A stretch of DNA of 50,259 nt from Candidatus Roseilinea mizusawaensis (GTDB lineage Bacteria; Chloroflexota; Anaerolineae; J036; Brachytrichaceae). The position numbers and the translations under genes were made by a program. Positions 13,499-16,530 of the stretch are shown piece after piece. Positions within the stretch are counted from its first letter, which is position 1. Every line of letters starts with the position of its first letter. The stretch is taken from positions 1 to 50,259 of the forward strand of contig JAEANN010000031.1 in NCBI GenBank assembly GCA_016841965.1, in the 5' to 3' direction. A model generated the notes under the pieces. The model saw nothing but the letters and a program-made list of their open reading frames with translations. It was not told the origin of the DNA and did no database searches.

Positions 13499-14797
<1,299 letters not shown>

Positions 14798-14858: not shown

Positions 14859-14955
14859 TTCATACAGTTCTGGGCCGGCGCTTGGCATCCCATCATCTCG
14901 CTCGATTAACAAAGGGCGCAAATCACGTAAGGTTCACCAATCCAGGGAGGTGACT

Positions 14956-15393
14956 ATGTCTCGATTGGCCATTCGCCATCTGGCCGTCATGGCTACTGCT
15001 GCGCTGGTTGCCGCGTGCAGCGACGCCCCGTTCGCCGCGCCTTCTCCCAGCCCGGCGCCGGCAGCAGTCACCGCTGTCGCGCCAGCCACAGCGCCGATTG
15101 CGCAACGGAAACCCAAATTCATCGAGTTCTACGCCGATTGGTGAGGAACCTGCCAATCGATGAAGCCTACCGTGAGTAGGCTCGAAGAGATGTACACAGA
15201 CGCTGTCGAGTTTGAGTTCATCAATATCGATTCACCGGATAGCGCCGCGGCCAAACAAAAGTATCGGTTCATCGGACAACCTCAATTTGTGATCGTCAAG
15301 CCAGATGGCGAAGTGCTTGTCTCACGCAACGGCTACCAACAGTTCGAGCGCCTACGTAATGATCTGGAACAGGCTCTCGGCGCCGGCCAGTGA
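14956..15393 (+). CDS. Membrane-anchored thioredoxin, probable selenoprotein (UGTC)
   Basis: Read through the in-frame TGA at 15142-15144, this frame gives a 145-residue thioredoxin-fold lipoprotein. Residues 1-21 are a signal with lipobox LVAAC (Cys21), followed by an Ala/Pro linker. The thioredoxin domain begins about residue 52 with KFIEFYADW. The TGA is residue 63, exactly where the first catalytic cysteine of WCGxC belongs, and is followed by GTC with Cys66. The rest is intact, with the expected cis-proline in FIGQPQFV (Pro109). A SECIS-like hairpin lies 26 nt downstream. Selenocysteine is the likeliest reading. A nonsense mutation or sequencing error (TGC or TGT to TGA) is the alternative. 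The ATG is chosen for the GGGAGG 5 nt upstream. The neighbour is an exported L,D-transpeptidase. Confidence 0.8.
15142..15185 (+). promoter_or_regulatory. UGA codon with SECIS-like hairpin
   Basis: After the UGA (15142-15144) come 26 nt, then an apical loop CGUGA (15171-15175) closed by a perfect 7-bp stem AGCCUAC/GUAGGCU (15164-15170 with 15176-15182). Below it UCG/CGA can pair around a bulge AUGA. Bacterial SECIS elements lie just downstream of UGA, with the loop roughly 16-37 nt away and a G in the first two loop positions followed by U. All of these hold here. Confidence 0.7.
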
Positions 15394-15462: not shown

Positions 15463-16530
15463 ATGAGAACCAGTCGTAGGTCGTTGTTGAAGCTGGGCGC
15501 GCTGGGCATCGCCCGCGCGCTGCTGCCGCCTCTGCCTGCCCCCGATCATTACGCAGACGGCTTGAGCGACCCGGCCATTTCTGTGCGTCCACTGCTGGGT
15601 TTCGCGCGCACCCTGAACTGGGCCGGGGTCATCCGCAGCGAGCCAAGCGTGCAAGCGCCACAGGTGGGCAAGCTGGCGCGCGACAGTGTGCGGCCGATCT
15701 ACGCCGAGATTGAAACCGATTCGGGAACTGCCCACAACAAGCTGTGGTACGAGATCAAAGGCGGCTATGTGCATTCGTCGAATGTTCATGTGGTGGACTG
15801 GCAGCTCAACCGACCGGAAACAGATGCCGGCGAAAAGGGCTTCTGGGCCGAACTGACCATTCCGTTCTTCGACGTGCGCGTTGGCCCCGCGTTCAGCGCC
15901 GGCCGGACACGCTACCGCTACTATGGCGGCACCGTATACAAAGTAATCAAAGTGGTCAAGTCCAGCGATCCAGCCGACACAAGCCTGTGGTACCAGCTCG
16001 AAGACGAAATGTTCCCCGGATTATGGTTCGTGCCCGGCAAATACATGCGCCGCATCCCTGACGAAGACTTCGCCCCACTGTCGCCAGAAATCGACCCGGC
16101 AGAGAAAAGGCTGGTGGTGAGATTGAAGGAACAGCGCGTGTATGCCTACGAAGGCAAACGAGAAGTGTTTTCGTGCCGTGCCGCAACGGGCGCAAGCTTC
16201 CAGGCCGGAGACTTCAGCACGCCGGTTGGAAAATGGTTCATCTTCCGCAAGACGCCTACCCAACACATGTACGGCGGGGCCGTGGGGGATGAAGGATCAT
16301 TCGACCTACCCGGCATTCCATGGGTGTGTTACTTCACCACCAGCGGTGTCGCCTTCCACGGCACCTACTGGCACAACGACTATGGCGTGCCGCGCAGTCA
16401 TGGGTGCGTAAATGTTACGTCACCAAATGCCAAATGGATCTGGCGCTGGTCGATGCCACCCAACGACCCGGCCGAGCGCTATATCCACATCCGCAAACCC
16501 GAACTGGGCACATCTGTTATTGTCGAGTAG
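15463..16530 (+). CDS. Exported L,D-transpeptidase (YkuD), Tat signal
   Basis: A 355-residue protein from the ATG at 15463. This start places a twin-arginine signal (SRRSLLKLGALG) at the N-terminus; an in-frame start lies at 15397. Residues about 40-210 contain SH3-like segments. The YkuD catalytic domain (about 225-350) has the hallmark HGTYWHNDYG and SHGCVNV with the catalytic His and Cys. Family members make 3-3 cross-links in peptidoglycan or attach proteins to it. It directly follows the thioredoxin lipoprotein. A link in which that thioredoxin keeps the catalytic cysteine reduced is a reasonable inference but unproven. Confidence 0.92.
   Translation: MRTSRRSLLKLGALGIARALLPPLPAPDHYADGLSDPAISVRPLLGFARTLNWAGVIRSEPSVQAPQVGKLARDSVRPIYAEIETDSGTAHNKLWYEIKGGYVHSSNVHVVDWQLNRPETDAGEKGFWAELTIPFFDVRVGPAFSAGRTRYRYYGGTVYKVIKVVKSSDPADTSLWYQLEDEMFPGLWFVPGKYMRRIPDEDFAPLSPEIDPAEKRLVVRLKEQRVYAYEGKREVFSCRAATGASFQAGDFSTPVGKWFIFRKTPTQHMYGGAVGDEGSFDLPGIPWVCYFTTSGVAFHGTYWHNDYGVPRSHGCVNVTSPNAKWIWRWSMPPNDPAERYIHIRKPELGTSVIVE

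Follow-up and report, generated by a model that had tools for sequence, protein, structure and literature searches.

The locus and its predicted product

The window, a stretch of 50,259 nucleotides, comes from Candidatus Roseilinea mizusawaensis AA3_104, whose metagenome-assembled genome has 3,855,811 bases in 59 contigs. This phototroph belongs to the order Thermoflexales of the Anaerolineae and stems from a sulfidic hot spring (PMC8446752). This identity fits an earlier sequence-only reading of the locus, which had supposed a phototrophic host among the Chloroflexota. Between an enolase gene and a gene for an L,D-transpeptidase lies a frame (Table 1) that translates as MSRLAIRHLAVMATAALVAAC...FIEFYADW*GTCQSMKP... 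and is broken only once, by an internal TGA at 15142-15144. As that reading had noted, the break falls on the first position of the CxxC motif (W-U-G-T-C) and is flanked on both sides by thioredoxin sequence: with the TGA read as Cys, the protein matches PF00085 (Thioredoxin) at an E-value of 2.9e-14 and 53.4 bits, the gathering threshold being 23.5.

Table 1. Features of the thioredoxin locus, in positions of the window
Feature	Position	Strand	Details and basis
Enolase gene	13520..14797	+	Normal TGA stop; 5' of the thioredoxin gene; syntenic in genera g1 and g6
Putative ribosome-binding site, GGGAGGTGA	14945..14953	+	Read in the sequence, 5' of ATG 14956
Predicted selenocysteine thioredoxin gene	14956..15393	+	145 residues with Sec63; stop TGA 15391-15393
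Predicted lipoprotein signal peptide, lipobox V-A-A-C21	14956..15018	+	Sequence and alignment, by reading
In-frame TGA, very likely selenocysteine 63, first UxxC position (W-U-G-T-C)	15142..15144	+	Alignments, SECIS model
Codon of predicted resolving Cys66, TGC	15151..15153	+	Invariant in alignment
SECIS hairpin, 7 bp	15164..15182	+	Arms 15164-15170/15176-15182, loop CGUGA 15171-15175; covariation, fold
L,D-transpeptidase (YkuD), twin-arginine-type signal, SHGCVN catalytic motif	15463..16530	+	PF03734, E 1.2e-20

An AlphaFold2 model of the protein has the thioredoxin fold, with a pLDDT of about 97-98 in the domain, and this predicted fold compares with solved thioredoxins at Z 13-15. In the alignment U/C63, C66 and P109 are invariant, the last being the cis-Pro site. 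The protein reaches 48.5 of the 96.8 bits at which the TIGR01068 equivalog for cytosolic thioredoxin is assigned, and it lies below the cut-off of every NCBIfam model. In the codons 3' of the TGA, comparison with the congener G228 gives dN 0.097 and dS 1.36 (dN/dS about 0.07), and so low a dN relative to dS indicates that the downstream part of the gene is under purifying selection at the protein level.

The lipoprotein signal that had been claimed is also recognizable: LVAAC at residues 17-21 holds a lipobox, VAAC, ending at Cys21, homologues read LAAC, LSAC or LVAC at this place, and the lipobox is kept among those of full length. A linker rich in Pro and Ala separates the signal from the thioredoxin domain. 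Judged by its sequence, the gene product is likely an exported, membrane-tethered thioredoxin.

A conserved hairpin downstream of the UGA

The sequence-only reading had described a hairpin with a 7-bp stem and a CGUGA loop, which is found at 15164-15182. The 26 nt it had given holds as the distance from TGA to loop and fails for the start of the stem, which begins 19 nt after the TGA. All Sec-type genes have a stem at the same distance, of up to 7 bp, under a loop that is nearly always CGUG. The loop G at alignment column 31 is invariant and stands within the first two loop positions, in agreement with the bacterial SECIS rule.

Folding energy of the single sequence was rejected as proof of the hairpin, as it does not set the window hairpin apart from shuffles (z -1.34; 19 of 200 shuffles as good). 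With folding energy unremarkable, the case for the hairpin rests on covariation, and here the covariance check that had been suggested came out in favor of the structure. Across 39 distinct sequences, pairing is seen in 93.0% of stem cells (80.3 +/- 1.0% shuffled), 53 cells are changed on both sides of the stem (17.3 shuffled), and the covariation score of 0.530 (0.258 shuffled) is reached by none of 500 shuffles; when the arms are slid, the score is at most 0.133. The best compensatory pairs are columns 27-37, varying between C-G, U-A and G-C, and columns 28-36, varying between A-U and G-C; in each pair, one of the two columns often coincides with a synonymous position of a codon. Because shuffles keep relatedness, we give more weight to the slid controls and to the contrast with Cys-type genes. 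Among Cys-type homologues, the deep ones have lost the stem: those of G003 and G138, genomes that also lack the Sec machinery, one at G293 and three at G270. Those of G284 and G302 retain part of it.

When a SECIS model was scanned across the genome, the window TGA was the only strong site, at 60.8 bits, with the next best at 21 bits. This implies that other selenoproteins, SelD for example, must use hairpins unlike this one. An Rfam search gave no match at gathering thresholds, in a library that may lack a model of such hairpins. On the strength of its covariation, we consider that the hairpin is real and not a product of chance.

Selenocysteine and cysteine forms among homologues

Homologues were collected from 396 genomes of the class, aligned with strand correction, and then from a wider set. 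At precisely the catalytic codon, 31 genomes have TGA as part of a UxxC motif and 8 as part of a UxxU motif, at least 37 different Anaerolineae genomes between them, and the remaining homologues have TGC or TGT there. None of the homologues examined has an unrelated stop within the thioredoxin domain. In other words, the codon is either TGA or Cys in these relatives, and the scattered stops that the sequence-only reading had named as the contrary outcome do not occur. A single TGA in G003 was rejected as a Sec codon; a true stop had been read through there, and G003 is Cys-type. On the protein tree, in which few domain columns give limited support, Sec and Cys forms are interspersed with 9 changes among three states, as is expected for exchange between Sec and Cys.

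The decoding genes that had been listed for a check (selA, selB, selC and selD) turned up in full. In the window's genome a tRNA-Sec whose anticodon is UCA scores 69.5 bits and is called by ARAGORN too; selB scores 303 bits, selA 507 and selD 371. The selD gene (L018 1531, G000:C53) has its own in-frame TGA in the active-site loop (SCAG-U-ASKL) and is likely a second selenoprotein of the genome, so that at least two genes appear to need Sec decoding. Weak matches to the tRNA-Sec model in Cys-type genomes (48-52 bits) were left uncounted, as the window's genome itself yields an additional match of this strength (48.2 bits).

Within the window's family, selA accompanies the Sec form in 17 of 18 genomes and the Cys form in 1 of 6; Fisher's test, which takes no account of relatedness, gives p 8e-4. 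The genome G238 has the Sec form without selA, but its assembly is fragmented and both tRNA-Sec (70.7 bits) and selB are present. G302, which has selA and tRNA-Sec yet a Cys-type homologue, counts against the Sec reading.

The clearest view of such an exchange comes from the window's own genus. In G228 the thioredoxin is 74% identical to that of the window and has the same synteny, the codon is TGC, and selA, selB and tRNA-Sec all fail to score above cut-off. Its hairpin is nevertheless intact (CCUGC-CGUGA-GCAGG), with a compensatory change from A-U to G-C relative to the window. From these sequences, G228 looks like a recent switch from Sec to Cys together with loss of the machinery. The other congener, G266, retains the TGA along with selA, selB and tRNA-Sec. 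The genus thus presents a natural experiment on why cells bear the cost of selenocysteine, in which one lineage has Sec and another has Cys without the machinery while the hairpin is still there.

Two smaller observations belong here. The G266 assembly breaks at the hairpin, so that its Sec thioredoxin is split over two contig ends (L148/L147; G266:C10, C283). In genus g3, a Cys-type thioredoxin directly 3' of enolase (L160 4127+, G041:C9) has a stem that is still palindromic, CGCCGGC-TGTGA-GCCGGCT, and is perhaps another relic of a Sec-to-Cys switch.

Alternative explanations and proposed mechanism

Comparative evidence makes it very likely that the UGA at 15142-15144 is decoded as selenocysteine. 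Were it a true stop, the gene would be a recent pseudogene or would yield just a 62-residue lipoprotein. In this genome TGA does serve as an ordinary stop, for example at the ends of the enolase gene and of the thioredoxin gene itself, which also rules out a genome-wide reassignment of TGA, and the hairpin is unremarkable by folding energy alone. However, a true stop would have to recur at the identical codon in at least 37 genomes, ahead of a covarying hairpin and of codons with a dN/dS of about 0.07, in a genome that has Sec machinery, and we regard it as extremely improbable. An error in a TGC or TGT cysteine codon might be suspected in a metagenome assembly, particularly as G228 has TGC at this codon, but this TGA recurs in the congener G266 and in dozens of independent assemblies besides, which makes sequencing error untenable; moreover, the congener with TGC is without Sec machinery and the window's genome is with it. 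We assign such an error next to no probability.

By comparison, SelB with Sec-tRNA(UCA), bound to the hairpin whose stem starts 19 nt past the UGA, very likely inserts Sec63. Export and then lipidation at Cys21, as the signal predicts, would place the thioredoxin domain outside the cytoplasmic membrane. There, going by fold and motif, Sec63 would be the nucleophile, acting on disulfides or sulfenic acids in proteins of the envelope, with Cys66 resolving the mixed selenosulfide. Gene content suggests that a membrane carrier, most probably a CcdA-like protein, would draw on the thioredoxin pool of the cytosol to reduce the Sec-Cys bond again. We hold this explanation as a whole, that is, an exported lipid-anchored thioredoxin with Sec63 as nucleophile, inserted by SelB and the hairpin and re-reduced via a CcdA-like carrier, to be highly probable; we infer that CcdA would supply the electrons and that the neighboring L,D-transpeptidase may be a client. 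The sequence-only reading had already pointed to the catalytic cysteine of the adjacent transpeptidase as a possible client, and a stricter version would make the selenoprotein a dedicated partner that keeps the Cys of SHGCVN reduced for cell-wall cross-linking. Thioredoxin and transpeptidase genes are neighbors in G228 and G266 (the window's genus, g1), G172 (g5), and G348 and G185 (g6), but in g3 and g7, in some of g5 and beyond the family the thioredoxin gene has other immediate neighbors; the link is one of synteny, seen in some genera and not in others, and a dedicated partnership seems unlikely. We also doubt that the main role of the selenoprotein is that of an apo-protein reductase in the maturation of cytochrome c or of cytochrome oxidase (copper). 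The sole CcdA-like gene found, elsewhere in the genome, does adjoin a CcmC-like cytochrome c maturation gene (CcmC by eye), and the Sec thioredoxin gene of G316 has SCO1-like and copper-chaperone-like genes about 2 kb away. No maturation genes stand beside the window's thioredoxin gene, however, and the protein is far below the cut-offs of the ResA and DsbE family models.

Relation to known selenoproteins

Known Sec thioredoxins are cytosolic, and the Sec proteins of the PF13098 UxxC, TlpA-like and DsbG/DsbA-like kinds are exported. Thioredoxin UxxC (PF00085) is a listed and characterized bacterial selenoprotein family (PMC13188914; earlier PMC1794560), and three selenoproteins have been counted in Chloroflexi (PMC1794560). 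The claim that a membrane-anchored selenocysteine thioredoxin would be notable has to be narrowed: UxxC thioredoxins are established, and what we did not find described in the literature searched is an exported lipoprotein branch of them. Like the Treponema denticola type (PMC1794560, PMC13188914), the window protein has Sec for the first catalytic Cys and a SECIS just past the UGA; unlike that type, it is a predicted exported lipoprotein with a UGTC motif, belongs to an Anaerolineae-wide group and falls under the TIGR01068 cut-off. Selenoproteins of other thioredoxin-fold families are listed too, among them thiol:disulfide interchange (PF13098) UxxC, TlpA-like UGC and DsbG/DsbA-like proteins (PMC13188914). 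The window protein resembles them as a thiol-redox selenoprotein with predicted export, but matches PF00085 best and so differs in domain family.

Outside Chloroflexota, the nearest Cys-type relatives in the collection scanned are cyanobacterial membrane-anchored thioredoxin-like proteins (L053-L130), and unlike the window gene all those sampled carry Cys. The window protein is no member of NF038096, the slr1796-type photosystem I accumulation factor, scoring 41.3 of 140 bits. The retained hairpin of G228 after the change from Sec to Cys has parallels in Mannheimia FdhA and the HesB-like protein of Desulfitobacterium, Cys homologues with SECIS-like hairpins (PMC1794560); set against these cases, the whole Sec machinery (selA, selB and tRNA-Sec) is undetected in G228. 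Since ordinary annotation stops such genes at the TGA, the use of selenium in the envelope of Anaerolineae would go unseen.

A UxxU clade and fusion proteins

Eight thioredoxin-like lipoproteins of other Anaerolineae (L151 6046+, L152, L153, L154, L155, L156, L167 and L168) have two in-frame TGAs, as U-x-x-U. Seven form a single sister clade (SH-aLRT 99), and the eighth is a separate case. Each gene has a single SECIS-like hairpin, with its GUG loop 27 nt after the first UGA and 18 nt after the second. In having two Sec at a two-residue spacing these proteins are like SelL and the bacterial Prx-like UxxU proteins, which are peroxiredoxin-like families (PMC2398784); unlike them, they match PF00085 (three of three members tested). 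In the 2026 inventory, UxxU motifs are confined to the Prx-like, FmdB and metal-binding families, and thioredoxin is not among them (PMC13188914). One UxxU gene with an intact hairpin (L154) is in G326, a distant genome of one contig in which selA, selB and tRNA-Sec were not detected. With this clade, diselenide chemistry could be put to the test, as could the way in which a single SECIS acts on a pair of UGAs.

In two further genes, L157 (G337:C153) and L158 (G156:C408), the Sec thioredoxin domain is C-terminal on a secreted sugar-dehydrogenase-like protein, recognized by eye. We lean towards the view that Anaerolineae have a whole exported selenothioredoxin system, comprising the UxxC lipoprotein, the UxxU clade with one SECIS for UGAs 9 nt apart, and the sugar-dehydrogenase-like fusions. 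In G133 (L149), genes for a similar dehydrogenase and a Sec thioredoxin lie about 2 kb apart.
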